Shown in pieces: positions 696 to 31,348 of a stretch of 47,232 bases of DNA. The notes under the pieces are model-generated. The model was not told where the DNA came from. It saw nothing but the letters and a program-made list of their open reading frames with translations, and did no database searches. Source of the stretch: Candidatus Omnitrophota bacterium (GTDB lineage: Bacteria; Omnitrophota; Gorgyraeia; Tantalellales; Tantalellaceae); contig JAJRVD010000002.1 of NCBI GenBank assembly GCA_024277375.1, forward strand, positions 1 through 47,232, in the 5' to 3' direction. Within the stretch, counting starts at the first letter, position 1. Every line of letters begins with the position of its first letter. The position numbers were made by a program, and so were the translations under genes.

Positions 696-1343
696 ATGAA
701 GGATAAGAAAAAAATACCAGAGCCGGCTATACCGCGTCTTTCTCTATATTCCAGGGCTCTTCATGCCGCTGGAAAGATAGAGTTCATCTCCTCAGAGGAG
801 TTAGCTTCTCTTGCCGGGGTTAAGGCTGCCCAGGTTCGCCGTGACTTGACGTATTTTGGTCAATTTGGCACTCCCGGCAAAGGTTATAATGTAAAGAAAC
901 TACATGGACAGATAGTTCGGATACTCGGCGGCGATAAAGAATGGAACGTCGCGCTGGTGGGTGTAGGTAATTTAGGTGCCGCTTTTCTTCATTTTGAAGG
1001 GTTTCGTCAGCGCGGGTTTAATATTGTTTGCGCTTTTGACCGCGACGAATCTAAGGTAGATAAAGATTTTGGAACGGTTAAGGTCCAGTCCATAAGCGAC
1101 TTACAGGAGACCCTGAAAAAGGGAGATATAAATATCGCGATCGTAGCGGTTCCCGGAGGGGCCGCCGAGGAAGTTATGAATGCACTTAGCGATGCGGGCA
1201 TAAAAGCGATACTGAACTTTACATCCTTTAGGCCGCAACTGCCGAAAAAGGTACAAGTTTTGAATATGAATTTGACAATTGCGTTGGAGCAGTTGGCATA
1301 CTTTTTGACAAAGGAAACGAAGGACAACGTTTTTTTTGTGTAA
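696..1343 (+). CDS. rex: redox-sensing transcriptional repressor Rex
   Basis: Winged-helix (AGKIEFISSEELASLAGVKAAQVRRDLTYFGQFGTPGKGYNV) and Rossmann GVGNLGAAFLHF; start moved from ORF 450 because upstream overlaps the tRNA. Confidence 0.93.
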   Translation: MKDKKKIPEPAIPRLSLYSRALHAAGKIEFISSEELASLAGVKAAQVRRDLTYFGQFGTPGKGYNVKKLHGQIVRILGGDKEWNVALVGVGNLGAAFLHFEGFRQRGFNIVCAFDRDESKVDKDFGTVKVQSISDLQETLKKGDINIAIVAVPGGAAEEVMNALSDAGIKAILNFTSFRPQLPKKVQVLNMNLTIALEQLAYFLTKETKDNVFFV

Positions 1344-1347
1344 CCTC

Positions 1348-1377
1348 GTGATAAAATTCACTGTGATATTTGTCACA
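1348..1377. promoter_or_regulatory. two tandem Rex-box-like palindromes (GTGA-N6-TCAC)
   Basis: GTGA-TAAAAT-TCAC (1348-1361) and TGTGA-TATTTG-TCACA (1362-1377), 15-bp repeat period, between rex and the next gene. Confidence 0.7.
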
Positions 1378-1379
1378 AT

Positions 1380-2018
1380 ATGAAAAATCATTATCCGATA
1401 AACTTAGATCTGGAAAAGAAGCGATGCATTGTGATCGGCGGTGGTAACGTGGCTGAACGCAAGGTTAAGCGCCTCCTGGATTGCAATGCGGTAGTTACGT
1501 TGATAAGTCCGGAGGTTTCTTCCGGGATAATCCGACTTCGCAAAACTAAAAAAATTAAAGTTGAAATGCGGCGGGTTGCCCTAAAAGATCTTAAGGGCGC
1601 GCAGTTGGTTATTTCCGCTTCTGATGACAGGAAGGTAAACGCTTCGGTATCTGATTATTGTCATCGCAATAACATATTGATAAATGTTGTGGACTCGCCA
1701 AAAGAATGCAACTTTATTTTACCTTCGATCGTGACCCGAGGAGACCTCAGTATCGCGATATCTACAGGTGGAGTAAGTCCAGCTCTTTCTAAAAAGATCA
1801 GACAGGACCTTGAGAAAAGGTTTGGCATTGAGTACGCTAAGTTTTTGAGATTGATGAAAAAGGCGCGGCCAAGGGTAATTAAAGGGGTAAAGAACGCGGG
1901 GTCGAGAAAAACAATTTTTGAAAAAATTGTTAAGTCCAACATTTTAGTGTTGATAAAGAAGGGTAGAGAAAAAGACGCAAAACAAAAAATGGAACGTATT
2001 TTAAAAAATGATAAATAG
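1380..2018 (+). CDS. precorrin-2 dehydrogenase / sirohydrochlorin ferrochelatase (Met8/CysG N-terminal type)
   Basis: MKNHYPINLDLEKKRCIVIGGGNVAERKVKRLL; 212 aa; heme operon context. Confidence 0.9.
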   Translation: MKNHYPINLDLEKKRCIVIGGGNVAERKVKRLLDCNAVVTLISPEVSSGIIRLRKTKKIKVEMRRVALKDLKGAQLVISASDDRKVNASVSDYCHRNNILINVVDSPKECNFILPSIVTRGDLSIAISTGGVSPALSKKIRQDLEKRFGIEYAKFLRLMKKARPRVIKGVKNAGSRKTIFEKIVKSNILVLIKKGREKDAKQKMERILKNDK

Positions 2019-2472
2019 ACTAACAGATTTTTCTTCAGGGTTCGGAAATGCGTATTTCGTTACGCACCTTATCGCTATTGTTGCCAGCTATGCTGTGTTT
2101 TTTGTGACGTTCTCTGCGGCGGTTCTATATTTGGTGCAGGATAATAACTTGAAGCGTAAACATCTGGGCGCGATGTTCAATAGATTGCCGGATCTATCTT
2201 TGTTAGACAAGCTTACTTATAGATCAATTGAGTTGGGGTTTCCTATTCTGTCAGTGGCTATCATTGCCGGATTTCTTTTACAGAAAGATATTTCGGGTTC
2301 TTACTGGAATTGGAATACCAAGGAAGTATATTCGGTAGTTTCATGGCTTCTTTACGCTGTAACACTACACGTGAGGTTGTCATCCAAGTTGCGCGGGAAA
2401 AAGGTAGCGCTTTTATCAATTTTGGCGTTTGGTATAATTGTATTCAGTTTGTTCGTCGGATGTGGGGGATAA
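2008..2472 (+). CDS. HemX/CcsA-superfamily membrane protein (short form)
   Basis: SYWNWNTKEVYSVVSWLLYAVTLHVR resembles the CcsA WWD region; precedes hemA. Confidence 0.75.
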   Translation: MINRLTDFSSGFGNAYFVTHLIAIVASYAVFFVTFSAAVLYLVQDNNLKRKHLGAMFNRLPDLSLLDKLTYRSIELGFPILSVAIIAGFLLQKDISGSYWNWNTKEVYSVVSWLLYAVTLHVRLSSKLRGKKVALLSILAFGIIVFSLFVGCGG

Positions 2473-3545
2473 TGAACTTGTTTGTTTTGGGCATAAATCA
2501 TAAAACGGCTCCCGTCAACGTAAGAGAAAAACTCTCTTTCAGCGATCAGGAGATCGTTGAGGCCAATAAAAAGCTCGTGTCAAAGACTTCATTGAACGAA
2601 GGGTTGATCCTCTCAACATGTAACCGCGTGGAAATTTATGGAGTTTCGAACGATCCGGATGCCGACCATTTTGGGGAGATAAAAGGGTTTTTAAGTGATT
2701 TTCACCAGTTGGATCCCGAATGTTTTGAGGATAGACTTTATAACTACAACGGTGATAGGGTGATTAGGCACTTGTATAGGGTTGCTTCCGGGCTTGACTC
2801 GATGGTGATCGGAGAGATGGAAATATTAGGGCAGGTTAAAAAAGCTTACCATGTCGCTAAGGAAAGTAAGACTACGGGAAAGATATTGCATAGATTGTTT
2901 CAGAAAACTTTTACGACAGCAAAGAAGATCAGAACTGATACCGCTATTACCAGGGGATTGGTTTCCGTAAGTTCGGTCGCGGTTAAACTGGCCGGAAAAA
3001 TATTGGGAACTTTAGTGGACAAAGAAGTTCTTGTCGTTGGTGCGGGGCAGATCGGGGAACAGTTGATGATGTTCCTGAAGAAGAATGGGATAAAATCTAT
3101 TTTAGTGGCCAATCGGACGTTTGAAAAAGCACAGGAATTAGCCGTAAAATTTAACGCGACCGCTGTAAAGTTTGAGGATTTCAAAGAGGGACTGGTAGAG
3201 TCTGATATTGTTATTGCTTCGACAGGAGCGCCTCATTGCCTGATACGAAAACAGGACGTTTCCGAATTTATGCCGCGCCGCCGGCAAAGACCGCTTTTTA
3301 TCATAGATCTGGCAGTTCCGCGTGATGTTGAGTCAGAAGTCAATGACATAGATAACGCGTATTTGTATGATATCGATGATCTTCAGGGAATAGTGGAAAA
3401 AAACATAGAATTAAGAAAGAATGAGCTAGAAAATTGTGACAAAATCATAGCAGATTCATGTGATAAGTTTCTGCATTGGCTGCAAGTCGAGAAGGCAATA
3501 AAGAATGACGAAAGATACGTTGATAATAGGGTCGCGTTCAAGTAA
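2472..3545 (+). CDS. hemA: glutamyl-tRNA reductase
   Basis: MNLFVLGINHKTAPVNVREKLSF, LSTCNRVEIY, VIGEMEILGQVKKAY; start refined from ORF 2310. Confidence 0.96.
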   Translation: MNLFVLGINHKTAPVNVREKLSFSDQEIVEANKKLVSKTSLNEGLILSTCNRVEIYGVSNDPDADHFGEIKGFLSDFHQLDPECFEDRLYNYNGDRVIRHLYRVASGLDSMVIGEMEILGQVKKAYHVAKESKTTGKILHRLFQKTFTTAKKIRTDTAITRGLVSVSSVAVKLAGKILGTLVDKEVLVVGAGQIGEQLMMFLKKNGIKSILVANRTFEKAQELAVKFNATAVKFEDFKEGLVESDIVIASTGAPHCLIRKQDVSEFMPRRRQRPLFIIDLAVPRDVESEVNDIDNAYLYDIDDLQGIVEKNIELRKNELENCDKIIADSCDKFLHWLQVEKAIKNDERYVDNRVAFK

Positions 3546-4425
3546 ACTGGCGCTTACTCAGACTCGTTTAATAAAAGATGCCATCGAGGCGGTATTTCCG
3601 GAGTTGAAGGTAGCGATCAAAACTATCAAAACAACCGGATATAAGATCCTGGATGTTCCGTTAAGCAAGATTGGTGATAAGGGGCTCTTTACTAAGGAGA
3701 TCGAAGAGGCGCTCCTGGCAAATGAAGTTGATCTCGCGGTTCATAGCATGAAAGACCTGCCGACTAAATTGCCTGAGGGCTTAGTGATCGGAGCGGTTAC
3801 GAATAGAGAAAATTCTTGCGACATACTGGTTTATTCCGAAGGCTATACTCTCGAGACATTGCCTCAAGGCGCTAAAGTAGGAACGAGTAGTCTTCGCCGC
3901 CGCGCTCAAATTCTTAACAAACGAAGTGATCTTGAGATCCTTGATCTTAGAGGGAATTTGGATACACGTGTTCGCAAACTTGAGCAAGGTCAATTTGACG
4001 CCATAATCCTGGCGTATGCAGGCGTGAAGCGTCTGGGGCTTGAGGTGAAGATGTCGATTATATCGGTTAGCGATATGTTGCCTCAGGCGGGACAAGGCGC
4101 GTTGGGGATCGAGATAAGGGAAAATGATCCTGATGTCAGCAGGATAGTTGACGTTTTAAATGACGCGAAATCGCGTCTTTGTGTTGAAGCGGAACGCGCG
4201 TTGCTTGCTGTGTTGGAAGGCGGATGCCAGGTTCCTATCGGAATGTCTGCCCGAATAGAGGATGAAATGATCCTTATTTCAGGTGGTGTGTTTTCATTAG
4301 ATGGGAAAAACGCCGTGCGAGATGAAATAGATGGCGACAAAAAGGACGCGTCTGGTTTAGGCGAAGAGTTGGCAAAAAATTTGCTAGACAAGGGCGCGGG
4401 AGAGATCTTAGAGGAGATCAGATAA
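3505..4425 (+). CDS. hemC: porphobilinogen deaminase
   Basis: IGSRSSKLALTQT, AVHSMKDLPT, GTSSLRRRAQ, EGGCQVPIG. Confidence 0.97.
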   Translation: MTKDTLIIGSRSSKLALTQTRLIKDAIEAVFPELKVAIKTIKTTGYKILDVPLSKIGDKGLFTKEIEEALLANEVDLAVHSMKDLPTKLPEGLVIGAVTNRENSCDILVYSEGYTLETLPQGAKVGTSSLRRRAQILNKRSDLEILDLRGNLDTRVRKLEQGQFDAIILAYAGVKRLGLEVKMSIISVSDMLPQAGQGALGIEIRENDPDVSRIVDVLNDAKSRLCVEAERALLAVLEGGCQVPIGMSARIEDEMILISGGVFSLDGKNAVRDEIDGDKKDASGLGEELAKNLLDKGAGEILEEIR

Positions 4426-4427
4426 TA

Positions 4428-5933
4428 ATGCCAAAAACAGTATATTTAGCGGGAGCCGGACCGGGAGATGAGCGGTTGATAACGGTTAAAGCACTCGACC
4501 TCATAAAAAAGGCCGATTGTATAGTCTATGACTACCTTGTCAATCCTAATTTGCTGCGATTCGCGAAAAAAAAGTGTGAACTTATATACGTGGGCAAGAA
4601 AGCGAAAGCACATACATTAACGCAAGAGAAGATCAATGAACTTTTGGTGCGAAAAGCCAAAAAGCATGATATGGTGCTTCGCTTGAAAGGTGGAGATCCT
4701 TACATCTTCGGAAGGGGAGCGGAAGAGGCTCTTCATCTCAAGAAAAACAAAATTAATGTTGAAGTTGTTCCGGGCATAACAAGCGCTATCGCGGTTCCGG
4801 CATACGCGGGAATATCGCTTACTCATAGAACGGCGAATTCTACAGTTGGCTTTATTACGGGGCACGAAGATCCTACAAAGGATATCTCCAGTATCGATTG
4901 GGACGCGCTTTCGAAGGCTTTAGGGACAATGGTGTTTTTGATGGGGGTTGGCAACCTGCCTAATATAACAAAGAAACTGATCGCGAGCGGGAAATCCAAA
5001 AAGACTCCTGTAGCTCTTGTTCGGTGGGGAACTACCGCTAAACAGGAAGCAGTCACAGGCACGCTGGGAAGTATTGTACAGATAGCGAAGAAAAATGGGA
5101 TTAAACCCCCCGCGATAATTGTTGTGGGAGAGGTTGTGAAGCTTAGGAAAACATTGAACTGGTTTGAGGAAAAACCTCTTTTTGGTAAAAGAATAGTAGT
5201 TACTCGTACTCGCGTGCAGGCAAGTGGCTTGTCGGAAAAATTTATCGAGTTGGGCGCAGAGGTTGTTGAGGTCCCGACGATCGAGGTCGTATCACTAAAG
5301 GCGGACAAAAAGGTTAAGGCCGCCTTTAAGAGGTCTGAATATGATTGGATCTTTTTTACAAGCCAGAACGGCGTTAAGGATTTCTCGGACATGTTGGACC
5401 GGATCGGAAAAGATAGTCGTATTTTTGGACGATCTAAAGTTTGCGCTATTGGCTCTGAAACGGCAAAAAGTCTGGCCAAAATTGGGATAAAGCCGGATTA
5501 TGTTCCCGGCGAATTTCGTGCCGAGGCGATAATTGATCATTTTAAGAAGAAACGTATGGCAGGTAAAAATGTGTTGATCTTGCGCGCGAAACAGGCGCGC
5601 AATGTATTGCCTGACGGACTTAAGAAATTAAAAGCGCTGGTTAAGGTCGTTGATCTTTATGATACACGTACTCCTAAAGAAAGCGACGGGCGGCTAAAAG
5701 ATATTTTTAACGATAAGGTGGACATGGTTACTTTTACCAGTTCGTCGACCGTTAAGAATTTTGTTAAACTCGCGGGGAAAAATTATAAAAAAATGGTCAA
5801 AGGCGTAAAGATAGCATCTATTGGACCGATCACGTCCAAGGCTATAAAGGAAGCGGAGTTGAGTGTTGATGTTAGAGCAAAGGTCTATACCATAAAAGGA
5901 TTGGTAGAGGCCATAGTAAAGAAGATAAAATAG
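4428..5933 (+). CDS. cobA-hemD: fused uroporphyrinogen-III C-methyltransferase / uroporphyrinogen-III synthase
   Basis: N-term VYLAGAGPGDERLITVKALDLIKKADCIVYD, RLKGGDPYIFGRG; C-term HemD-like domain (VTRTRVQASGLSEKFIELGAEVVEVP). Confidence 0.95.
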   Translation: MPKTVYLAGAGPGDERLITVKALDLIKKADCIVYDYLVNPNLLRFAKKKCELIYVGKKAKAHTLTQEKINELLVRKAKKHDMVLRLKGGDPYIFGRGAEEALHLKKNKINVEVVPGITSAIAVPAYAGISLTHRTANSTVGFITGHEDPTKDISSIDWDALSKALGTMVFLMGVGNLPNITKKLIASGKSKKTPVALVRWGTTAKQEAVTGTLGSIVQIAKKNGIKPPAIIVVGEVVKLRKTLNWFEEKPLFGKRIVVTRTRVQASGLSEKFIELGAEVVEVPTIEVVSLKADKKVKAAFKRSEYDWIFFTSQNGVKDFSDMLDRIGKDSRIFGRSKVCAIGSETAKSLAKIGIKPDYVPGEFRAEAIIDHFKKKRMAGKNVLILRAKQARNVLPDGLKKLKALVKVVDLYDTRTPKESDGRLKDIFNDKVDMVTFTSSSTVKNFVKLAGKNYKKMVKGVKIASIGPITSKAIKEAELSVDVRAKVYTIKGLVEAIVKKIK

Positions 5934-5963
5934 ATTCCCGATAAAAATATTCGGGAATGACAC
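5934..5963. repeat. ATTCCCGA...TCGGGAAT hairpin repeat, copy 1
   Basis: attcccgataaaaatattcgggaatgacac directly after the cobA-hemD stop. Confidence 0.75.
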
Positions 5964-5972
5964 GGGGGAATA

Positions 5973-7130
5973 ATGATAAATTGCACAAGATTGCTTTGCG
6001 GGGTAGCGGGTTCAAATGATGATATACGTTACAAAAAGGGGAAACCCGCCGACACCAACAGACCCATCGTTGTCTGGAATTCGACAAGAAAATGTAACCT
6101 TAAGTGTATACATTGTTACATTGACGCGACTCCATCAGCGAGTGCGGGCGAGCTCACGACTGTCGAAGCTAGAACGATGCTTGACGATTTGGCGGATTTC
6201 GGAGCACCGGTATTTCTCTTCTCAGGAGGGGAACCGTTCATGCGGGATGACCTTTATGAACTTGGGAACTACGCTAAGGGCAAAGGCCTTAGAACTGTTA
6301 TCTCTACGAACGGAACTATGATAACAGATGATGTTGCCAAAAAAATACGTGACACCGGTTTTTCATATGTGGGAATAAGCCTGGACGGCCTTGAAGATGT
6401 TAATGATAAATTCAGGGAACAGAAGGGCGCGTTCAAAAAGACATTGGAAGGCATAAGAAATTGCAAGAAGAACGGTGTTCACGTTGGGTTAAGATTCACT
6501 ATCAACAAACATAACTTCAGGGATATCGCGGGTATCTTCGACCTGATCGAGAATGAAGGCATTCCGCGCACATGTTTTTATCATCTGGTTTATTCCGGGC
6601 GTGGAACTGATATGGTAAAGGATGACCTTACTCATTCTGAAGCTCGCGATACAATGGATCTTATTTTTGATAGGAGTGAGGATATAGTTGCCAGGAAACA
6701 AGATACAGAGATACTAACCGTAGATAATCATGCTGACGGTATTTATCTGTATCTTCGACTGAAGAAAAAGGATCCTAAGCGCGCCGCGGAAGTATTAGAA
6801 CTTCTTCGCATTAATGGCGGGAATAAATCCGGCATAGGTATCGCTAATGTGGATAATCTGGGCGAGGTACACGCGGATCAGTTTTGGAGGCATTATTCTT
6901 TTGGAAACGTAAGAAAGAGAAAGTTTAGTGAGATATGGATGGATGAAAGTGACGAATTGTTGAACGGTCTGCGTCACAAAGTGCCTCTATTGAAAGGTAA
7001 ATGCGGAAGATGTAAATTTAAAGACGCGTGTGCCGGTAATTTCAGGGTCCGAGCCGAAGCGGTATACGGTGATATCTGGCAGGAAGATCCGGCATGTTAT
7101 TTGACGGAAGAAGAGATATTAAATGGGTAG
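5973..7130 (+). CDS. ahbC: radical SAM protein AhbC-like (Fe-coproporphyrin III synthase)
   Basis: INCTRLLCG..., CNLKCIHCY radical SAM motif, C-terminal CGRCKFKDAC; clustered with ahbA/B/D. Confidence 0.85.
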   Translation: MINCTRLLCGVAGSNDDIRYKKGKPADTNRPIVVWNSTRKCNLKCIHCYIDATPSASAGELTTVEARTMLDDLADFGAPVFLFSGGEPFMRDDLYELGNYAKGKGLRTVISTNGTMITDDVAKKIRDTGFSYVGISLDGLEDVNDKFREQKGAFKKTLEGIRNCKKNGVHVGLRFTINKHNFRDIAGIFDLIENEGIPRTCFYHLVYSGRGTDMVKDDLTHSEARDTMDLIFDRSEDIVARKQDTEILTVDNHADGIYLYLRLKKKDPKRAAEVLELLRINGGNKSGIGIANVDNLGEVHADQFWRHYSFGNVRKRKFSEIWMDESDELLNGLRHKVPLLKGKCGRCKFKDACAGNFRVRAEAVYGDIWQEDPACYLTEEEILNG

Positions 7131-7164
7131 AGATTGCTTCGTCGCCTGCGGCTCCTCGCAATCA

Positions 7165-7280
7165 GGCTGTGTCGTAATTCGTTTTGCGGGTGGCCGCATA
7201 CAATATCTTGTAGGGGTTCGATTTATCGAACCCGATATAACGGGCTTGATGAATCAAGCACCTACATTATGACACAGTCT
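7165..7280. repeat. MITE-like repeat copy A (TIR GGCTGTGTCGTAAT / ATTATGACACAGTC)
   Basis: Core gtaggggttcgatttatcgaacccgatataacgggcttgatgaatcaagc(a/c)cctac. Confidence 0.8.
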
Positions 7281-7373
7281 AAATGACAACTCTTTCTGTC
7301 ATTGCGAGCGAACAACGTGAGCGAAGCAATCCCAAAAAACGGTATACGAAATATGAGATACGGAATACGAATT

Positions 7374-8378
7374 ATGGCTTTTCCAGAAGACAGGATGAGA
7401 GATAAAAGAATAACTGAGGAAACGAGGCGGAAGTACCGTGAAACCGGTGAACTTTCCCCTAAAGACCTGGTTATGCCTATTTTTGTTAAAGAAGGTATTT
7501 CTAAAAAAAATGAGATCTCTTCCATGCCGGGCATTTATCAGTTCCCTTTTGAAGATGTTGCCGCTGAAGCTCAGCGAATTTTAGATGCCGGTGTTCCGGC
7601 TGTTATTTTGTTTGGTATACCCGAGAAGAAAGATGAGACGGGATCGGGTTCTTATGCTGAAAATGGAGTAGTTCAGAAAGCTATTCGAATTATAAAGGAG
7701 AAGGTTCCTGAGATTACTGTTATTGGTGATGTGTGTATGTGTGAATATACTTCGCACGGTCATTGCGGGATACTTAACAAGTCAGAAAGCAGGGGTCGGG
7801 AGTCAGAATATATAGTTGATAATGATGCGACAATAGAGATTTTGGGGAAAATTGCCGTTTCTTATGCTAAGGCGGGAGCGGACATTGTCGCACCATCAGC
7901 TATGATGGATGGTCAGGTTAAGGCCATAAAGGATGCGCTTACGGTGAATGTTTATCCTGATGTTAAAATAATGTCTTACTCTGCAAAATATGCTTCCGCT
8001 TTTTACGGACCCTTCCGGGACGCGGCAGAATCTCCTCCGCGATTTGGAGACAGGCGAACGTATCAGATGGATCATTACAACTCTGACGAAGCAATTCTTG
8101 AGTCTGCGATGGACATAGAAGAGGGTGCGGATATTTTGATGGTGAAGCCGGCCTTGGCGTATCAGGACATTATATGCCGGTTAAAAAAAGAACTTAATTT
8201 CCCGCTTGCTTGTTATTCGGTTAGCGGAGAGTACGCGATGTTCAAGGCGGCCGCTGCTAAAGGTTATTTAAATGAAGAGAAGGTGGTTTTAGAATCCCTT
8301 GTAGGATTAAAACGCGCGGGTGCGGACACGATTATAACATACTACGCGGTAGAGGCGGCGAAATGGCTCACGAAATAG
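7374..8378 (+). CDS. hemB: delta-aminolevulinic acid dehydratase
   Basis: SPKDLVMPIFVKEG, DVCMCEYTSHGHCG, APSAMMDGQV, MVKPALAYQD; start refined from ORF 7302, whose N-term is repeat-derived. Confidence 0.96.
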   Translation: MAFPEDRMRDKRITEETRRKYRETGELSPKDLVMPIFVKEGISKKNEISSMPGIYQFPFEDVAAEAQRILDAGVPAVILFGIPEKKDETGSGSYAENGVVQKAIRIIKEKVPEITVIGDVCMCEYTSHGHCGILNKSESRGRESEYIVDNDATIEILGKIAVSYAKAGADIVAPSAMMDGQVKAIKDALTVNVYPDVKIMSYSAKYASAFYGPFRDAAESPPRFGDRRTYQMDHYNSDEAILESAMDIEEGADILMVKPALAYQDIICRLKKELNFPLACYSVSGEYAMFKAAAAKGYLNEEKVVLESLVGLKRAGADTIITYYAVEAAKWLTK

Positions 8379-8381
8379 AAC

Positions 8382-8422
8382 GTCATCCTGAGCGAGGTCC
8401 GAAGGACCGAGTCGAAGGATCT
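8382..8422. repeat. GTCATCCTGAGCG-type dispersed repeat at the hemB/ahbD junction
   Basis: gtcatcctgagcgaggtccgaaggaccgagtcgaaggatct. Confidence 0.8.
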
Positions 8423-8431
8423 CAATTAAGA

Positions 8432-9478
8432 ATGATAGCCTGGGAGCTCACGCGGAGTTGTAATCTGTCGTGCGCGCATTGCCGCGCTTCAAGTGAGAGT
8501 GGTCCTTATGAAGGTGAGCTCACAACGGAAGAGTGCTTCAAAGTAATTGATGATATAACGACAGTAGCGAAACCTATTGTGATCTTGACCGGCGGTGAAC
8601 CACTCCTGCGTGAAGATGTTTTTGAGATCGCCAAATACGGGACAGAGAAGGGTCTGAGAATGGTTATGGCTCCGAACGGAACGCTTCTTACTCCTGAAAA
8701 TGTAAAACGATCAATTGAGGCGGGAATAAAGAGAATATCGATCAGTTTGGATGGACCGGACGCGGCTACTCATGACGATCTAAGACAAGTTCCGGGCGCG
8801 TTTGACGCGGCGATCAAAGGTATTTCCGCCGCCCGTGACGGCGGATTGGAATTTCAGATAAATACGACGGTTACTAAGCGTAATGTTACGCTTTTACCTG
8901 AGATGTTGACATTGGCACGAGACTTGGGGGCTAAAGAACATCACATATTTTTGCTTGTTCCGACCGGGAGAGGCAAAGAAATGGAAGAGGACGAACTTAC
9001 CCCGGAAGAATATGAAGATACCCTTAAATATCTCAGTGAAGAAGGGGACAATACGAACGTAGCTATACAGGTAACCTGCGCGCCGCATTTTAAACGTATT
9101 ATGCTGCAAAGTCATTCGAAGATGGCAAAAACCATTCGTGGCAGGGGCTGTATGGGCGGGATAAGTTTTTGTTTTATCTCTCATGTCGGAGATCTTCAAC
9201 CCTGCGGCTATCTTGAGCTTGATTGTGGCAATGTAAAAAGAGAGGGATTCAAAAAAGCCTGGGAAGGATCTGACGTCTTTAACAATTTGAGAAATCCGGC
9301 CATGTATAAAGGTAAGTGCGGGATATGCGAGTTCAAGAATGTTTGCGGTGGGTGCCGCGCGAGGGCGCAAGCCAAATATGACGATTACCTGGCAGATGAA
9401 CCATATTGTGTGTATGAACCAAAGAGGTGCGATAGTTCTGATGGTGAAAAAGCAGAGATCGCTGAGTGCGATAGATAA
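8432..9478 (+). CDS. ahbD: radical SAM protein AhbD-like (heme b synthase)
   Basis: MIAWELTRSCNLSCAHCRA, LTGGEPLLREDVFEIAKYGTEKGLRMVMAPNGT, C-term CGICEFKNVCGGCRARA; ORF extends to 8363 through a repeat. Confidence 0.85.
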   Translation: MIAWELTRSCNLSCAHCRASSESGPYEGELTTEECFKVIDDITTVAKPIVILTGGEPLLREDVFEIAKYGTEKGLRMVMAPNGTLLTPENVKRSIEAGIKRISISLDGPDAATHDDLRQVPGAFDAAIKGISAARDGGLEFQINTTVTKRNVTLLPEMLTLARDLGAKEHHIFLLVPTGRGKEMEEDELTPEEYEDTLKYLSEEGDNTNVAIQVTCAPHFKRIMLQSHSKMAKTIRGRGCMGGISFCFISHVGDLQPCGYLELDCGNVKREGFKKAWEGSDVFNNLRNPAMYKGKCGICEFKNVCGGCRARAQAKYDDYLADEPYCVYEPKRCDSSDGEKAEIAECDR

Positions 9479-9911
9479 AAAGATAATTAACAGGTTGCAA
9501 AGAGACATTCCTTTTGTGAAGAAACCATGGAGCGCGATCGCTCGTGAACTTGAGATAGATGAAGCGCGGCTCTTGAAGCGGATCGGACTGTTAAAGAAGA
9601 TCGGAGTGATCCGAAGGATAAGCGCAACTTTTAATCCGCAAAAAGTGGGATTTACCTCAACACTTGTAGCCGCGAAGGTCGCGTCGCGAGACATTGATAA
9701 AGTCGCTAAAAGGATAAACGCTTACGAGGAGATAACACATAACTATAAAAGAGATTCGGAATACAATCTTTGGTTTACGCTTGTAGCGCGGAGCAAGAAT
9801 AGAATTTCGCAAGTGTTGAGAGAGATAAAAAGGGACAATAAGGAAATCAAGAAGTTAGTGAATTTGCCCGCGAAACGTTTGTTCAAGATCGGGGTTAAAT
9901 TTAAGGTGTAA
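9441..9911 (+). CDS. ahbA: siroheme decarboxylase subunit A-like (Lrp/AsnC fold)
   Basis: IDKKIINRLQRDIPFVKKPWSAIARELEIDEARLLKRIGLLKKIGVIRRISA; next to ahbB paralog; start refined. Confidence 0.82.
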   Translation: MVKKQRSLSAIDKKIINRLQRDIPFVKKPWSAIARELEIDEARLLKRIGLLKKIGVIRRISATFNPQKVGFTSTLVAAKVASRDIDKVAKRINAYEEITHNYKRDSEYNLWFTLVARSKNRISQVLREIKRDNKEIKKLVNLPAKRLFKIGVKFKV

Positions 9912-9961
9912 GAGGGGATCTCTTCGTCGTCATTTGTTTCGCAAATGAGCTCCTCGCAATC

Positions 9962-10079
9962 AGACTGTGTCACGACATAACGGGCTTGATTCATCAAGCC
10001 CGTTATGTCGGGTTCGATAAATCGAACCCCTACATTACATTGTATGAGGCTATCCGCAAACCGAATTACGACACAGCCT
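9962..10079. repeat. MITE-like repeat copy B (inverted relative to A)
   Basis: agactgtgtc...cgggcttgattcatcaagcccg...ggttcgataaatcgaacccctac...gacacagcct. Confidence 0.8.
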
Positions 10080-10138
10080 GAATGACGGCTCTTGCTGTCA
10101 TTGCGAGCGAAGTGAGGGAAGCAGTCTCTAAAGAAACC

Positions 10139-10597
10139 ATGAATAATATTGACAAAAAGATCATCAGTTTACTTGCGCAGGATATCCCGTTGGTGGAGCG
10201 GCCTTTTGAGGCGCTTGCGAGCAAGCTTGGCACGCAAGAAGCGGAACTCATAAAAAAGTTGAAAGCATATAAGAAAAGCGGTCAGATGCGAAAACTCGCC
10301 GCGGTTTCTAACCACAGGAAGATCGGGTTCAAATATAATGCTATGGTCGTGTGGAATATTCCTGAAGATAAATCTGAAAAAACCGGAGAAATAATGGCTA
10401 CTTTTAACGGGGTAAGCCATTGTTATCAGAGAAGTAAATTCCAAGGCTGGAAATATAATCTGTATACCATGATACATGGGAAGACAAAAAAAGAATGTTT
10501 TGATCTGGCGGCTAAAATCGCGAAGAAGACAGGTTTTGAAGATAATATGGTGCTTTTTTCGTCAAAGGAGTACAAAAAAACCGGCGTTAAGTACTAG
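10139..10597 (+). CDS. ahbB: siroheme decarboxylase subunit B-like (Lrp/AsnC fold)
   Basis: MNNIDKKIISLLAQDIPLVERPFEALASKLGTQEAELIKKLKAYKKSGQMRKLAAVSNHRKIGFKYNAMVVWNIPED; start refined from ORF 10082. Confidence 0.85.
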   Translation: MNNIDKKIISLLAQDIPLVERPFEALASKLGTQEAELIKKLKAYKKSGQMRKLAAVSNHRKIGFKYNAMVVWNIPEDKSEKTGEIMATFNGVSHCYQRSKFQGWKYNLYTMIHGKTKKECFDLAAKIAKKTGFEDNMVLFSSKEYKKTGVKY

Positions 10598-10620
10598 AAT
10601 TACGTAGGAGCCGCTTCCAA

Positions 10621-10726
10621 GGCTGTGTCGTAATGTAGGGGCTTGATTCATCAAGCCCGTTATATCGGGTTCGATAAGTCGAACCCCTGTAATATGTTGT
10701 ATGCAGCCATGACTTGTGACACAGCC
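10621..10726. repeat. MITE-like repeat copy C
   Basis: ggctgtgtcgtaatgtaggggcttgattcatcaagcccgttatatcgggttcgataagtcgaacccc...gacacagcc. Confidence 0.8.
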
Positions 10727-10757
10727 CGGAAGGAGGAGAACCTTAAAGAGGTATATT

Positions 10758-12044
10758 ATGAAACATGCAAAATCGAAAAAATATTTCAAAGAGGCCAAAA
10801 AGGTGATTCCCGGCGGGGTAAACAGTCCCGTTAGGGCTTTTAAAGCTGTTGGGGGATGTCCTGTATTTATTGACAAGGCCAAAGGCGCGTACATTTACGA
10901 TGTTGACGGGAATAAATATATTGATTACGTTCTTTCCTGGGGACCGATGATACTCGGGCACGCTAATGATAAAATTTTAAAGCCTGTCAGCAGGCTTCTT
11001 AAGAATGGAACAAGTTTTGGCGCGCCGACTCGCAGAGAGGTTGAGCTTGCCCAACTTGTAGCGAAAGCATATCCTTCGATCGAAAAGGTAAGGCTTACTT
11101 CTTCCGGAACTGAAGCAGCAATGAGCGCGATAAGATTGGCAAGAGGATATACCGGACGGGACAAAATAATTAAGTTTGAAGGATGCTATCATGGGCATTA
11201 TGACAGCCTTTTGGTCAAGGCTGGCTCAGGTGCCGCGACTTTTGGGGTGCCATCTTCGGCGGGTGTTAATGCAAGTTTTGCCAAAGATACCATAACACTT
11301 CCTTATAATGATTTAGAAAGCGTTAAAAAGGTGATCAGGAAGGAAAAAAATAAAATAGCCTGCTTGATTCTAGAACCGATTCCTGCTAATATGGGGGTTG
11401 TTTTACCGGAGCGAAATTACTTAAAAGCACTGCGGAAGATAACGGAAGAAAACGATATTATTCTGATCTTTGATGAAGTAATAACAGGTTTTAGAGTCGC
11501 GTTGGGCGGCGCGCAAGAGATATACAATATAAAACCGGATCTAACCGTCTTGGGCAAGATCATAGGCGGAGGGTTTCCAATAGGAGCTTTTGCCGGTAAA
11601 GCGAAGATCATGAATTGTTTGTCTCCGGACGGATCGGTTTACCAGGCGGGAACTCTTTCAGGTAATCCGATCGCGGTGGAAGCGGGAATAAACACCATAA
11701 AAGCATTAAGGAACAAAAAAGCCTACAAACAACTCGATCGCAAAGGGGAACTGTTCGAAGATGGGTTGCGAAAAATATCGGACAGGACGGGAACCAAAAT
11801 AGTGATCAACAGATTCGGTTCATTGCTTACCGTGTTTTTTACAACGCAGGGAAGCGTAAAGAATTATGCAGACGCGGCAAAGTGTGACGCGGCAAAGTTT
11901 GGCAAGTATTTCGGAGGGATGTTGGATCAAGGCGTATATTGCGCCCCTTCACAGTTTGAGGCGAATTTTTTGTCAGTGAAACACACGGTTAAAGATATAG
12001 AGAGAACTTTAGAGGCAGCGGAGAAAGTGTTAATGGGAGTATAG
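10758..12044 (+). CDS. hemL: glutamate-1-semialdehyde 2,1-aminomutase
   Basis: PGGVNSPVRAFKAVGGCPVFI, SSGTEAAMSAIRLARGYTGRDKIIKFEGCYHGHYD, FDEVITGFR. Confidence 0.97.
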   Translation: MKHAKSKKYFKEAKKVIPGGVNSPVRAFKAVGGCPVFIDKAKGAYIYDVDGNKYIDYVLSWGPMILGHANDKILKPVSRLLKNGTSFGAPTRREVELAQLVAKAYPSIEKVRLTSSGTEAAMSAIRLARGYTGRDKIIKFEGCYHGHYDSLLVKAGSGAATFGVPSSAGVNASFAKDTITLPYNDLESVKKVIRKEKNKIACLILEPIPANMGVVLPERNYLKALRKITEENDIILIFDEVITGFRVALGGAQEIYNIKPDLTVLGKIIGGGFPIGAFAGKAKIMNCLSPDGSVYQAGTLSGNPIAVEAGINTIKALRNKKAYKQLDRKGELFEDGLRKISDRTGTKIVINRFGSLLTVFFTTQGSVKNYADAAKCDAAKFGKYFGGMLDQGVYCAPSQFEANFLSVKHTVKDIERTLEAAEKVLMGV

Positions 12045-17611: not shown

Positions 17612-18495
17612 AGTATGCCTATTTTCCGGGATGCTCACTACACGCGACAGCGGAAGAATACGCCCGATCAAGTGTCGCGGTTTGCGAAAAACTCGGTATT
17701 GAACTAGAAGAGATCGAAGATTGGTTGTGTTGTGGAGCTACACCCGCGCATATTACTAATCATCTAGCGTCTATTGCTTTACCTATAGCCAGTTGCGCGT
17801 GGGCTGAAAAGCAAAAGCTGGATGTTCTTACCTGCTGCGCGGCATGTTCCAGCAGGCTTAAATTGGCAAATCAGGAAGTGAAAGAAGATCCTGAGCTTCG
17901 CGCTAAGGTGAATAAAATTATTGAAGAGGACTATAAAGGAAATATAGAGGTACATCATATACTGGAAGTCCTCTCAAAAAAGGTGGGGTTCGAGAATCTA
18001 AGAGAACAGATCGTAAAGCCGCTCAATGGATTGAAGGTAGCTTGTTATTATGGCTGTCTTTTAACGAGGTTGCCTGAGCCTTTGCGGCTGGACAATCTTG
18101 AAGACCCCATGGTTATGGATGATCTCGCGACGGCAATGGGCGCGGAAGCGGTTGACTGGCCGTATAAAACCGAATGTTGCGGAGCTAGTCTCGCGGTTAT
18201 ACAGGAGCAAACAGTATTAAGGCTCGCTAATGACATTTTAACCATAGCTGAGGATAGCGGAGCCGAATGTATTCTTGTAGCCTGTCCTTTGTGTCAGTCT
18301 AACCTGGATCTGATGCAGTCGGGAGTAAATAAAAAATACAATAAAAACTTCAATATTCCGGTGTTTTATTTTACTCAACTTTTAGGGCTGGCGATGGGCA
18401 TAGATAGAGAGAAGCTGGCGTTATCAAAATTAATCGTTAACCCTTTCCCGCTTTTGGCGGAGAAGGGGTTCATAGAAAAAGAGGCGTATCTATAA
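17608..18495 (+). CDS. hdrB: heterodisulfide reductase subunit B-like
   Basis: MKYAYFPGCSLHATAEEYARS, CCAACSSRLK, ECCGASLAV, CPLCQSNLD (CCG domains). Confidence 0.94.
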   Translation: MKYAYFPGCSLHATAEEYARSSVAVCEKLGIELEEIEDWLCCGATPAHITNHLASIALPIASCAWAEKQKLDVLTCCAACSSRLKLANQEVKEDPELRAKVNKIIEEDYKGNIEVHHILEVLSKKVGFENLREQIVKPLNGLKVACYYGCLLTRLPEPLRLDNLEDPMVMDDLATAMGAEAVDWPYKTECCGASLAVIQEQTVLRLANDILTIAEDSGAECILVACPLCQSNLDLMQSGVNKKYNKNFNIPVFYFTQLLGLAMGIDREKLALSKLIVNPFPLLAEKGFIEKEAYL

Positions 18496-21400
18496 TGGCT
18501 AGAATAGGCGTATTTGTATGTTGGTGTGGTTCTAATATCGCGGAAACGGTTGATTCCGAAGGCGTAGGGGAATATGCCGCGAAGTTGCCGGGCGTTGCAG
18601 TCTCAATGGATTACAAATATACATGTTCGGACCCCGGACAGAAAATGATAATCGAGGCTATCCGGGAGCATAAACTGACCGGAGTTGTTGTCGCTTCATG
18701 TTCTCCGCGTATGCATGAGACTACCTTTAGACGAACTGTTGCCGGTGTGGGGTTGAATCCCTATTTGCTTGAGATGGCAAATATACGGGAGCATTGCTCA
18801 TGGGTGCATCATGACAAGGAAGCAGGCACAGAAAAGGCAAAGATATTGGTTCGTATGATGGTAGAAAAGGTGAAACATAATCATAAGTTATATCCTATCA
18901 AAGTACCTGTGACAAATAGAGCTCTCGTAATCGGCGGGGGTATTGCCGGCATACAGGCCGCGTTGGATATCGCGAAGGAAGGTCATGAAGTAATAATTGT
19001 GGAAAAACAACCATCAGTGGGTGGGCATATGTCGCAGTTGGATGAAACTTTTCCAACGTTGGATTGTTCTCAGTGTATATTGACTCCCCGTATGGTAGAA
19101 ATAATCCAGGATAAAAATATAAAACTCTATGCCTACTCGGAAGTCGAATCGGTAAGCGGTTTTATCGGCAATTTCAAAGTAAAGATCCGCCGCAAAAGTC
19201 GCTACCTGAAGGAGAGTGAATGTACCGGTTGTTCTGATTGCGAAGAACCATGTCCGGTAGAACTTAAGAATGAATTTAACGAAGGTTTGGATACCCGCAA
19301 AGCTATTTATCGTCCATTTACACAGGCTGTTCCGAATTCATTTCTTATCGAGAAAACAAAAGAACCGGCCCCGTGTAAAGTGGTTTGTCCTATAGGACAG
19401 AATGTGCAGGGTTATGTAGCTTTAATGTCTAAAGGTAAATTTAAGGAAGCACTTAAAGTTGTGCGCGAAACCAATCCGTTCCCGTCGGTTTGCGGGAGGG
19501 TTTGCACCCACGTTTGTGAAACCGCGTGCAACAGGAGCCGTATAGATGAGCCTATTTCAATAGCGTCACTAAAAAGAGTTTTGGGAGACTTTGAGGCCGC
19601 CAATCCGGAGCTTATAACATACGCGAAACCTGAAGAAACAAAATCTGAAAAAGTTGCTGTTGTCGGCGCCGGTCCTGCCGGACTTGTATGTGCTTATGAC
19701 CTGGCAAAAGCGGGATATAAAGTTAAAGTGTTTGAATCTACACCCGTGGCGGGCGGGATGCTCTATTTAGGTATACCGGAATATCGGCTTACTCGCGATG
19801 TTATTGCCAGGGAGGTAAAGGCTATCCAGGATATGGGTGTTGAGATAGAACTGAATTCGCCGGTTGATGACGCGCAAGAACTCTTGAAAAAGGGATATAA
19901 AGCTGTTTTTCTCGGTATTGGTTGTCAAAAAGGAAAAGACCTTGGAATAGAGGGTGAAGATGCCGAAGGCTCTACGGACGCTGTCGCGTTCTTGAAAAAG
20001 GTGAACCTCGGAGAAACAACTAAAGTAGACGGTAATGTTATTGTTGTAGGTGGTGGTAACTCCGCTATCGATGCCGCGAGAAGCGCGCTTCGACTGGGGG
20101 CTAAGCAGGTAAAGATAGTTTACAGACGCTCTAAAAAAGAAATGCCCGCCGATCCGAGAGAAGTTGAAGATGCTGAGAAAGAAGGCGTGAGCATAGAGTT
20201 TCTTTCCAATCCGACCAAAGTAATAACTGAAAATGGCAGGATAACCGAGGTAGAGTGTTTAAGGATGGAACTCGGTGAACCTGACGGATCCGGGCGAAGA
20301 AGGCCTGTGCCCGTAAAAGGATCTGAATTTATTATCAAATCAGACCTCTTAATAAGAGCTGTAAGCCAGGCTATGGAACAGGATTTTGATAAGTCCGAAA
20401 ATATTAAATTAAGCAGGTGGAAAACTGTTGATGTAGATCCGTTGACACTGGCGACTTCAGTCGATGGAATATTTGCCGGCGGCGACGGTGTTAATGGACC
20501 GGAAACCGTAGTTAGAGCAATGGAAGACGGATATATCGCGGCAGAATCTATAAAGAGGTTCTTAACTTCCCGAGACCTGAAAGAAGGGCGTAACTTTCCT
20601 GCTCATAAGGTCACCGAAGAACCGGCAGAGAGGCTTTTTGAGGGAGTTGAAAAAGCCTCGAGAGTAAAAATACCTGAAATATCGATTGAGGACAGAAATA
20701 ACTTTAAAGAGGTAGCGAGTGTTCTTTCCGATGAGGACGCGATCAAGGAGGCTAAAAGATGTCTTAATTGCGGGATATGTTCCGAATGCGGGGAATGCGG
20801 CAAAGCGTGTGAAAAGGATCTGATAGACCATAATATGGAAGATGAGATCGTCGAAGAAGATGTGGGCGCTATTGTTGTCGCGACGGGATATGATCTTATG
20901 GACCCATCGGTATATGAAGAGTACGGCTACAAAAAATATCCGGATGTATTGACCAGTTTAGAATTTGAGAGAATGGTAAGTGCCTCCGGGCCGACAAACG
21001 GAAAGTTAATAAGGCCTTCAGACGGACAAACACCTAAAAATGTGGTTTTTGTCCAATGTGTCGGATCCCGGGATGAAGATAAAGGGTATCCGTATTGTTC
21101 AGGGATATGCTGTATGTATACGGCAAAGCATACGATGCTTTTTAAACATAAAGTTCCTGACGGAAAAGCTTTCGTTTTCTATGTCGACGTTCGAGCTTCA
21201 GGGAATAACTATTAGCAGTTTGTCAGGCGTGTTGTTAAGGAGAAAAAGGCAATATATTTACGCGGTAGGGTAGCGAAAGTATTTCCTCTGGGACCAAAGC
21301 TCATTGTTAGAGGTGCCGACACTCTAAGTGGAGGGCAGATCGAGATAGAAGCGGACATGGTAGTTCTGGCTACGGCTGTGACGGCGGCTCCAGGAGCGGA

Positions 21401-21863
21401 TAAGCTTGCGCAGACATTGAAAATTTCCTATGATGAGCATAATTTTCTTTCGGAAGCTCATCCGAAGTTACGTCCGGTTGAGACTAATACCGCGGGTATA
21501 TTTTTGGCGGGTACATGCCAGGCTCCCCGGGATATTCCTGAAACTGTCGCTCAGGCATCGGGTGCCGCGGCAAAGGTATTGGGTATAATTCATGGTAATG
21601 AACTGGAAAGAGAGCCCGCGACCGCGATCGTGGACGAAACCAACTGCAACGCGTGTTTCGACTGCGAGAAAGTATGCGCTTATAACGCGGTAGAGGAAAA
21701 AGAGATCAAAAACAGAAAAGGTGAACTAATAAAAGTTGTTGCCAGTATAAACCAGGGGATGTGTCAAGGGTGCGGGGCATGTGCCGCGTCCTGTAGATCC
21801 GGATGCATAGATGTTCAGGGCTTTACGGATGAACAGATATACGCGGAAATATTGGCAAGTTAA
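18495..21863 (+). CDS. hdrA: heterodisulfide reductase subunit A with inserted GltD/NfnB-like NAD(P)H oxidoreductase domain; one in-frame TAG at 21213-21215
   Basis: IGVFVCWCGSNIAETVD, GGGIAGIQAALDIAKEGHEVIIVEK; insert PCKVVCPIGQNVQGYVALM...VVGAGPAGLVCAYDLAKAGY; ORFs 18495-21215 and 21357-21863 in one frame; 3' part has IFLAGTCQAPRDIPETVAQASGAA and ferredoxin motifs. Confidence 0.88.
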
Positions 21864-25743: not shown

Positions 25744-26718
25744 ATGAAGAAAACATTAAAAGAAATATTCGACGCGTTAAGGACAAAAAATTATAGAGTA
25801 GTTGCCCCCGTTAGAGATGGTAATAAAATATTTTTCACAGAAGTTAGTTCCCCGGATGAAATAACGCTTGATTATGTTAATTCTGAGATCGCCGCGAAAG
25901 AATGGCTGTTTCCACGCACTGAGGTGGTAATGAAGTTCGATAACTTAGCGACAGAAAACGTAGAAATAAGTGACGATATTGAAAATCAAACTGTTGAGAC
26001 TCTAACGGCCATTATTGGAGTCCGACCCTGCGATGTGAAAAGTCTTCTTATCCTGGATAAAGTGTTTTCCTGGGATTACAAGGATGCCTTTTACCTGAAT
26101 AGACGTGAGAATACTGTGCTGGTAACGCTCGGATGTTCGAAACTCGGGGATGGTTGTTTTTGCGATAAAGTCGCCCTTGATATGAGCTCACAAGAGGGTT
26201 CAGATGTTTTTCTCGCGCAAAATGGTGACGGTTCATTTGAAATGAGCGTGGTTTCTGATAAAGGCGCGGAAATTTTTCCGGGAGAGAAAATTGTTCCTGA
26301 GGAGCAAAAAACGACCGGGGACGCTTTTGACAAGAAAAAGATAAAAGCGTGGCTTGACGGTAATTTTGAGGATGAGATCTGGGATAAAATGGCGCTTAAG
26401 TGTCTTAGTTGTGGTGCATGCGCTTATGTGTGCCCCACATGTCATTGTTTTGACGTGATCGATGAAGCATCCATTTCTGAAGGATGCAGGCGAAAGAATT
26501 GGGATTCCTGCGGTTTCGGGCAATTTACAATACATGCGTCAGGGCATAATCCCCGACCATCGCAAAAAGAGAGATTTCGCAACAGGATACTGCACAAGTT
26601 TAAGTACTATGTAGATAAGTTTGATGAGACAGCCTGTGTGGGGTGCGGTCGGTGCAGAAAAGTATGCCCGGTGAATATGAATTTGCGGGACATAGTAGGC
26701 GCGATAGAAAAGAAATAA
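25744..26718 (+). CDS. 4Fe-4S protein, sulfhydrogenase beta / AsrA-like (FlxC-type)
   Basis: GVRPCDVKSLLILDKVF, CLSCGACAYVCPTCHCFDV, CVGCGRCRKVCPVNM. Confidence 0.83.
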   Translation: MKKTLKEIFDALRTKNYRVVAPVRDGNKIFFTEVSSPDEITLDYVNSEIAAKEWLFPRTEVVMKFDNLATENVEISDDIENQTVETLTAIIGVRPCDVKSLLILDKVFSWDYKDAFYLNRRENTVLVTLGCSKLGDGCFCDKVALDMSSQEGSDVFLAQNGDGSFEMSVVSDKGAEIFPGEKIVPEEQKTTGDAFDKKKIKAWLDGNFEDEIWDKMALKCLSCGACAYVCPTCHCFDVIDEASISEGCRRKNWDSCGFGQFTIHASGHNPRPSQKERFRNRILHKFKYYVDKFDETACVGCGRCRKVCPVNMNLRDIVGAIEKK

Positions 26719-26740
26719 CGTTGGGAAAGACAGGAGACAT

Positions 26741-27574
26741 ATGGATAATTTATATAGATCTAATTTAGCTAAGATAGTAAAAGTGACGGACGAAACCCCG
26801 GACGTTAAAACCTTTAAACTTGAATTCGTGGATGAAAAATTCAGAGATTCATTCGACTTTAAAGCCGGACAGTTCGGGCTTTATGGGGTTTTTGGCGAAG
26901 GCGAATCAACTTTTTGCGTCGCGTCGCCTCCTACACGCAAAGGGTATATCGAGTGCAGTGTAAAAAAGACCGGAAGAGTTACGGACGCGTTGCACAATCT
27001 TGACGAGGGAGCGGTGATAGGGTTTAGAGGCCCTTATGGCAATAGTTTTCCTATAGAGGATATGAAAGGGAAAAATATTGTATTTATAGCCGGTGGTATC
27101 GGGTTGGCTCCTGTCAGATGCATTATATGGAACTGTCTTGACTTGCGTAAGGAGTTCAAGGACATAACGATAATATACGGATCTCGCAGTGTGGATGACC
27201 TAGTGTATAAGGAAGAACTTAAACAATGGGAAGAGATGTCCGATGTGAAATTGGTCAAAACTGTTGATCCCGGAGGGGAAACCGATGATTGGAATGGCGA
27301 AGTAGGTTTTGTTCCCACAATAGTGGAGAAAGTCGCGCCTGGTGCTGAGAATTCTATCGCGGTTATTTGCGGCCCTCCAATAATGATAAAGTTCACGTTG
27401 CCCGTTCTGGATAAGTTGGGATTTGAACCGGAGAGTATAATTACCACCCTTGAAAATAGAATGAAGTGTGGTCTTGGGAAATGCGGACGATGTAACGTGG
27501 GAAACGTTTATGTGTGCAAAGATGGTCCTGTATTTACATATAAGGACCTTAAAAAAATGCCCGAGGAGTTTTGA
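26741..27574 (+). CDS. FAD/NAD(P)-binding oxidoreductase, sulfhydrogenase gamma / FlxA-like
   Basis: FKAGQFGLYGVFGEGESTFCVASPPTRKGYIECSVKKTGRVT, IAGGIGLAPVRCIIW, ENRMKCGLGKCGRCNVG. Confidence 0.9.
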   Translation: MDNLYRSNLAKIVKVTDETPDVKTFKLEFVDEKFRDSFDFKAGQFGLYGVFGEGESTFCVASPPTRKGYIECSVKKTGRVTDALHNLDEGAVIGFRGPYGNSFPIEDMKGKNIVFIAGGIGLAPVRCIIWNCLDLRKEFKDITIIYGSRSVDDLVYKEELKQWEEMSDVKLVKTVDPGGETDDWNGEVGFVPTIVEKVAPGAENSIAVICGPPIMIKFTLPVLDKLGFEPESIITTLENRMKCGLGKCGRCNVGNVYVCKDGPVFTYKDLKKMPEEF

Positions 27575-30325: not shown

Positions 30326-31348
30326 ATGAAGAGATATAGATACAAATGTTTCAGTAAAGCGTACGAGTTAGTGAAATTATTCACAGTGACAAAGTTCACA
30401 GTGACTTTATTCACAATGCTGATGATTTTATTCGGGCACATCGGCACATATGAATCACTGGCCGAGGAAACAACCTCTTTGGACGGTTACAAATTTTTAT
30501 TTGAGATAACCTCCGACGATAGTGATGTCGGTGCTCTTAATCAGCCGGTTGATCTCGATGTTGCAGATGGCCAGATTTATGTAGCAGACACTATAAACAG
30601 CCGTATTGTTGTTTTTGATGATAAGGGCAATGTGGAAAATGTTTTTGGAAAAAGAGGTACGGGTGCGGGTGAATTGAAGGCACCAATGGCGATAGCCATT
30701 GACGAGGGGAACAACAAGGTCTATGTAGCGGACTCTTCAAATTATCGCATTCAAGTGTTTAAGACTAATGGCGATTTTATTATGTCGATAGATCCTAATA
30801 AAGAAATCAAGGGCTCAGCGAAAAAGGTTCGGCCAATCGGTGTCGCCGTTGCAACAAATGGTAATATTTATGTTTCTGATGTCGATAACAATTTTATCCG
30901 AGTGTATTCCCCTAAAGGGAAGTTTATCTTTAAGTTCGGTGGTTTCGGTGCGGAGAATGGAAAGCTTTGTGTACCTGTGGGGATATCAATAGATGAGAAT
31001 GATAGTGTGTATGTCGTTGATATGAGTAATTCTCGACTTCAGGTTTTCGATAAAGATGGAAATTTTGTTATGAATATTGGGTCACGGGGCGATATTAAAG
31101 GTTCTTTTGGAAGTCCTAAAGATGTCTGTATTGATGCGGCCGGAAGAATATATATTTCTGACGCAATGAATTTGGTTGTACAAATTTTTGATAATGATGG
31201 CAATTTTGTAGGTGTTATCGGCGCGGAGAAAGATGTTGATAAGCAGTTTGCATCTCCGTTTGGATTAGCGGTTAAGGGCGAACGCCTTTATGTGATCGAT
31301 AGATGGAGAAATAGTGTAAGAGTTTTGGGAACCAAATTTCAAAATTAA
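30326..31348 (+). CDS. secreted NHL-repeat beta-propeller protein
   Basis: Repeated blades e.g. LNQPVDLDVADGQIYVADTINSRIVVFDDKGN, KAPMAIAIDEGNNKVYVADSSNYRIQVF; start could instead be 30416. Confidence 0.88.
   Translation: MKRYRYKCFSKAYELVKLFTVTKFTVTLFTMLMILFGHIGTYESLAEETTSLDGYKFLFEITSDDSDVGALNQPVDLDVADGQIYVADTINSRIVVFDDKGNVENVFGKRGTGAGELKAPMAIAIDEGNNKVYVADSSNYRIQVFKTNGDFIMSIDPNKEIKGSAKKVRPIGVAVATNGNIYVSDVDNNFIRVYSPKGKFIFKFGGFGAENGKLCVPVGISIDENDSVYVVDMSNSRLQVFDKDGNFVMNIGSRGDIKGSFGSPKDVCIDAAGRIYISDAMNLVVQIFDNDGNFVGVIGAEKDVDKQFASPFGLAVKGERLYVIDRWRNSVRVLGTKFQN
30371..30414. promoter_or_regulatory. three tandem GTGA-N6-TCAC palindromes, 15-bp period
   Basis: GTGAaattatTCAC a GTGAcaaagtTCAC a GTGActttatTCAC. 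Confidence 0.5.

Follow-up and report, generated by a model that had tools for sequence, protein, structure and literature searches.

A candidate tandem Rex operator between rex and the siroheme-dependent heme operon of an Omnitrophota bacterium

In an uncultured Candidatus Omnitrophota bacterium, the gene for the redox-sensing repressor Rex is followed directly by a long run of heme-synthesis genes, and the narrow gap between them is occupied by two palindromes that share the core letters of both Rex boxes and CRP/FNR-family sites. Which protein would read these palindromes, and what would it control from there? We approached the question in the window (the whole 47,232-nucleotide stretch of contig JAJRVD010000002.1 that was analysed), in the 2.07-Mb genome to which it belongs, and among 386 genomes of the class.

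The rex–heme junction

Coordinates of the features discussed, as positions in the window
Feature	Position	Strand	Basis
rex, redox-sensing NADH/NAD+ repressor, likely binder	696..1343	+	Pfam PF06971 and PF02629; NCBIfam Rex models above cut-off
Candidate Rex operator site 1, TCGTGATAAAATTCACTG	1346..1363 (core palindrome 1347-1362)	.	Sequence and matrix rank
Candidate Rex operator site 2, CTGTGATATTTGTCACAA	1361..1378 (core palindrome 1362-1377)	.	Sequence and matrix rank
Precorrin-2 dehydrogenase, siroheme branch, CysG N-terminal type; heme operon gene 1	1380..2018	+	PF13241, PF14824, PF10414
Heme operon remainder: CcsA-like, hemA, hemC, cobA-hemD, ahbC, hemB, ahbD, ahbA, ahbB, hemL	2008..12044	+	ORFs, PF01578, PF05201, AhbA/B domains
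NHL-repeat protein, probably exported, in multiheme cytochrome cluster	30326..31348	+	PF01436
Triple array of the same palindrome, inside NHL gene start	30369..30416	.	Pattern search and matrix

The original prediction described two back-to-back palindromes with a 15-bp period between an adjacent upstream rex and the first heme gene, and this arrangement is present: rex ends at 1343 and the palindromes occupy 1347–1377. They read CGTGATAAAATTCACT (1347–1362) and TGTGATATTTGTCACA (1362–1377), with base 1362 common to both and a period of 15 bp. Site 2 is a perfect TGTGA-N6-TCACA; site 1 has two outer-base mismatches and an intact GTGA-N6-TCAC. Two bases separate the end of the array from the ATG. 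As had also been predicted, no Shine-Dalgarno sequence is visible between the operator and this ATG. No sigma-70 promoter was recognised at the junction. The placement of the palindromes against the start codon of the operon suggests a transcript with a short leader or none.

The heme operon that follows is a siroheme-dependent Ahb route. For two of its genes the highest-ranking NCBIfam models, though below cut-off, are AhbC and AhbD, and its gene order is the same in relatives. On the other side of the junction, a tRNA-Gly(TCC) gene (565–638) lies directly upstream of rex. A dispersed perfect palindrome, GGGGACAGCCTC...GAGGCTGTCCCC, occurs at 421–486 of the window, at 1368–1405 of locus L055, and at loci L042 and L049; it stands shortly upstream of both rex genes of this genome and at other places in it, and looks like a mobile or REP-type repeat.

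Recurrence of the array and Rex boxes in relatives

Rarity of the tandem: The pattern GTGA-N6-TCAC-N-GTGA-N6-TCAC was searched with the reversed pattern as control. It occurs at two places in the genome, both on the contig of the window (1348, and a triple array at 30371), and at six places in five genomes among the 386 of the class, the triple array being counted once; the control gave none in either search. The six places are the rex–heme junction of the window, an orthologous NHL-repeat gene in four genomes, and the junction between rex and rnfC in genome G049. Looser searches were set aside. The single motif TGTGA-N6-TCACA is in excess in the window (44 against 17 expected), a count that misleads: much of the surplus comes from cytochrome genes, where the CXXCH heme motifs (TGYN6TGYCAY) look like the pattern. 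The sole other exact TGTGA-N6-TCACA in the genome, at C15:8177, lies inside a long ORF and was treated as chance. A regulon drawn from the Rex consensus with up to three mismatches was unusable, with 163 sites genome-wide against 127 for the control.

Heme operons of family f11: Footprinting covered the syntenic heme operons of family f11 rather than orthologous rex–heme junctions from close relatives. The Rex proteins of this family are 52–54% identical to that of the window and have the recognition-helix stretch AAQVRRDLTYFGQFGTPGKGY in common with it, and synteny extends over the heme operon and a large part of the cytochrome cluster. A box precedes the heme operon in each of four genomes: TTGTGAAAGAATTAACAA in G062, TTGTGAAAAAATTAACAA in G028, TTGTGAAAAAGTTAACAA in G087, and TTGTGAAAAAAATAACAA in G107 (the genome of locus L065), where it stands three bases before the ATG. 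All four follow TTGTGAA-N4-TTAACAA with at most one mismatch. G062, G028 and G087 each contain the exact form a single time, at the heme operon, and the one-mismatch sites in these three genomes include the rex promoter. The rex gene itself carries a Rex box just after a sigma-70-like promoter, read by eye, in 4/4 f11 genomes. The original prediction had staked itself on conservation in relatives, and the outcome favours it: Rex boxes stand before the same heme operon in four f11 genomes, and the tandem itself follows rex and adjoins the next ATG in a third family. Where the Rex is orthologous, sites have been kept at the orthologous targets, before the heme operon (G062, G028, G087 and G107) and in the NHL gene (G028, G087 and G107). 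Elsewhere the proximity of rex and heme genes takes other forms, with rex directly after ahbB and carrying its own Rex box in G132, and directly after the apparent end of hemL in G060 and G085.

Matrix scoring: A symmetrised matrix was built from nine Rex boxes of relatives, none of them from the window, and used to scan the window at about 47,000 positions. The five window palindromes rank 1, 2, 5, 7 and 9, with site 2 second, site 1 ninth, and the three units of the triple array at 1, 7 and 5. Site 2 scores 15.3 bits and site 1 11.1 bits; in shuffled windows, a mean of 0.08 positions reaches the score of site 2. With a matrix made only from boxes upstream of rex, the same palindromes rank 1, 4, 6, 8 and 11 (site 2 fourth, site 1 eleventh). 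Compared with TTGTGAA-N4-TTMACAA, the GTGA and TCAC cores are kept, with three mismatches at 1361, more at 1346 and two at 30369. Two single matches interspersed among these ranks, at 42289 and 43790, fall within a long ORF and are probably fortuitous. When built from the high-GC Streptomyces sites alone, a matrix ranks the window sites poorly, at 22 and 43, and is without power in this GC range.

The NHL gene and its cluster: The units of the triple array, which the original prediction had not mentioned, lie at 30370–30385, 30385–30400 and 30400–30415, again with a 15-bp period. Orthologues of the NHL gene are found in syntenic clusters of G028 and G087 (62% identity) and also in G107, and each of the three has a double palindrome of 15-bp period at the corresponding position in the sequence encoding the signal peptide. 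Across the four NHL genes, valine under the cores is encoded by GTG in 9/9 cases against 26/115 elsewhere in the genes (Fisher P 5e-6), and phenylalanine by TTC in 9/9 against 13/91 (Fisher P 3e-7), both values being uncorrected for shared ancestry. The fixation of these codons points to a constraint on the DNA and not on the protein alone.

The surrounding region (12090–38037) forms a large cluster in which genes for multiheme c-type cytochromes are joined by maturation genes (ResB/CcsA) and a gene for a possible beta-barrel outer membrane protein. It suggests an extracellular electron transfer system, and part of it is syntenic in G028 and G087. Within it, an HdrA-like gene (18495–21215 and 21357–21863) contains a single in-frame TAG at 21213–21215 (RASGNNY*QFVRRVVKEKK), and the same frame continues open beyond it; this could reflect read-through, a recoded codon, a pseudogene or an assembly error.

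The rnfC junction of G049: In G049, of family f32, rex is followed by the tandem TTGTGATTATTTTCACTGTGAGAGATTTCACAA, two nucleotides, and the ATG of rnfC (TIGR01945 above cut-off), which looks like the head of a full Rnf-type gene set. The layout is that of the window with a different target operon, and the two tandem sites are the only matrix matches of at least 12 bits within 20 kb around. The same genome has a near-perfect Rex box, TTGTGAAAATTATCACAA, at L225 (G049:C17:38637), shortly before a gene that is followed by a FAD/NAD-type reductase; this pair is similar in kind to window 25744–27574, and its first gene is a probable further Rex target judging by the box.

The likely binding protein and competing explanations

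The protein encoded upstream of the palindromes has the winged-helix N-terminus and the NAD(H)-binding Rossmann domain of Rex (PF06971, PF02629) and passes the cut-offs of NF003993 and NF003995. Its closest solved structures are Rex proteins, aligned over the full length including the GxGxxG motif. The five tandem-bearing genomes all fall within the seven with a Rex nearest to that of the window, an association with P ~3e-10 by genomes and ~1e-4 by families, in which relatedness is only partly handled. The window genome has a second rex, on contig C9, so that the C9 Rex could be the binder in place of the window Rex. Each f11 genome, and G049 as well, has a single Rex, which makes the C105-type Rex the likely binder there. 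The C9-like Rex (SGSGY) is a second type in Omnitrophota, and in 9/9 genomes examined (L165–L173) its own gene is preceded by two TGTGAA boxes at a strict 21-bp period; a pair of that form was not found before the C9 rex of this genome.

The same core letters would suit a CRP/FNR-family regulator of the CRP, FNR or HcpR type, whose consensus TGTGA-N6-TCACA is matched perfectly by site 2. We regard this assignment as extremely improbable. The CRP helix-turn-helix family PF13545 has no match in the genome, which is 95.7% complete, and is present in 14/14 control genomes; the sole cNMP-binding protein is 164 residues long and is without a recognisable helix-turn-helix. The sites of relatives, TTGTGAA-N4-TTAACAA, have the Rex form, and the tandem tracks the Rex subtype and adjoins rex in two families. 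The preference of the original prediction for Rex over CRP/FNR is thus borne out by the boxes of relatives and by the lack of PF13545 matches. Control might instead be exerted on the RNA: the computed fold of the transcript has two neighbouring hairpins that stop just short of the AUG (-9.3 kcal/mol, z -2.85) and could govern translation of the first heme gene, and the lack of a visible Shine-Dalgarno sequence would suit such a role. Such folding is, however, expected of any DNA palindrome; the f11 heme boxes, with their TTGTGAA and TTAACAA halves, are only partly self-complementary, and their distance from the ATG downstream varies from 3 to about 90 nt, and in the NHL genes the array comes after the start codon. 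An RNA element is therefore highly unlikely.

Two further explanations concern the array itself. A 15-bp period at two places of one contig, in a genome where dispersed palindromic repeats do occur, might reflect a proliferating short repeat or a chance expansion that regulates nothing. The units differ in their spacers and agree in the GTGA and TCAC cores, the genome has the tandem at no more than two places and the 386 genomes have it at six, and GTG and TTC codons are fixed under the cores in four NHL genes, all of which makes an idle repeat extremely unlikely. Alternatively, Rex binds and the control unit is site 2 alone, with site 1 decayed or accidental. The lower score of site 1 and the single box at the f11 heme operons favour this reading; the exact 15-bp double arrangement nevertheless recurs in G049 and in the NHL genes of four genomes, and we consider control by site 2 alone unlikely. 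What the sequence evidence makes very probable is that the two palindromes form a double operator through which the Rex encoded upstream would repress the siroheme-dependent heme operon.

Predicted control and comparison with known Rex systems

Characterised Rex proteins occupy their operators at low NADH, and NADH releases them (PMC5355995); by analogy the candidate operators would repress heme synthesis until NADH accumulates. At low NADH relative to NAD+, Rex dimers would occupy both sites and stop transcription of the heme operon; a rise in NADH would release them and allow heme synthesis. Through the triple array at 30370, the NHL gene and perhaps the genes after it would come under the same Rex control, and heme supply would increase in step with the cytochromes when electrons require an outlet. 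The NADH/NAD+ balance thus probably switches heme, cytochrome and NADH-handling genes together, as far as their shared sites indicate. With centres spaced by 15 bp, two dimers sitting on the array simultaneously would be about 1.4 turns from each other, on roughly opposite faces of the DNA. More tentatively, and somewhat short of what we would call probable, the 15-bp array may be a distinct Rex architecture in which two or three dimers sit side by side on roughly opposite faces, sharpen the response to NADH, and jointly control heme synthesis, Rnf and the extracellular cytochrome cluster, including from inside coding sequence in the NHL signal-peptide region.

Rex control of heme genes and the rex–heme operon are known from Streptomyces, where Rex represses rex-hemAC1DB in Streptomyces avermitilis (PMC5355995). 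The phylum and the Ahb pathway are new here, as far as sequence can tell, and so are the 15-bp double operator and the way in which the same array ties in a cytochrome cluster and rnf; a search of the open-licence literature found neither tandem Rex operators at 15 bp nor any account of Rex in Omnitrophota. The candidate operators extend the Rex–heme link from Streptomyces to an uncultured phylum with a siroheme-dependent heme pathway, and suggest that NADH/NAD+ governs heme supply, Rnf and multiheme cytochromes jointly. A double operator phased at 15 bp, once inside coding sequence, is a small and testable departure from single Rex boxes.

The canonical Rex operator is TTGTGAA-N4-TTCACAA (Staphylococcus aureus, PMC2883068; Streptomyces, PMC5355995). 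The window sites resemble it in their two inverted GTGA half-sites and in the 6-bp gap between the TGTGA and TCACA cores, and depart from it in some missing outer and inner bases, with at least three mismatches at the heme junction and a weak match at site 1; the sites of relatives are near-perfect. Canonical boxes stand singly, whereas those of the window abut at a 15-bp period. The C9-like Omnitrophota boxes are likewise paired Rex half-site motifs at rex, but they have a 21-bp period and precede rex itself, in contrast to the 15-bp array after rex in the window. CRP, FNR and HcpR operators have the same core letters, and such a regulator was not found in the genome. The closest parallel is with the rex-hemACD and rex-hemAC1DB operons of Streptomyces, in which, as in the window, rex is directly followed by heme-synthesis genes; control by an operator is known there and predicted here. 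The Streptomyces sites combine GTGAA, GTGAT and GTGAC half-sites with TTCAC (PMC5355995), and the footprinted S. avermitilis sites include TTGTGATACGGTTCACGA and TTGTGACCTGCTTCACAT (PMC5355995), whose GTGAT or GTGAC and TTCAC half-sites resemble those of the window. The Streptomyces operator precedes rex, and rex and hemA share a transcript there; upstream of the window rex there is no matrix match of at least 11 bits, and the double candidate operator instead stands between rex and the heme genes, at the head of an Ahb heme pathway in an Omnitrophota bacterium with multiheme cytochromes.
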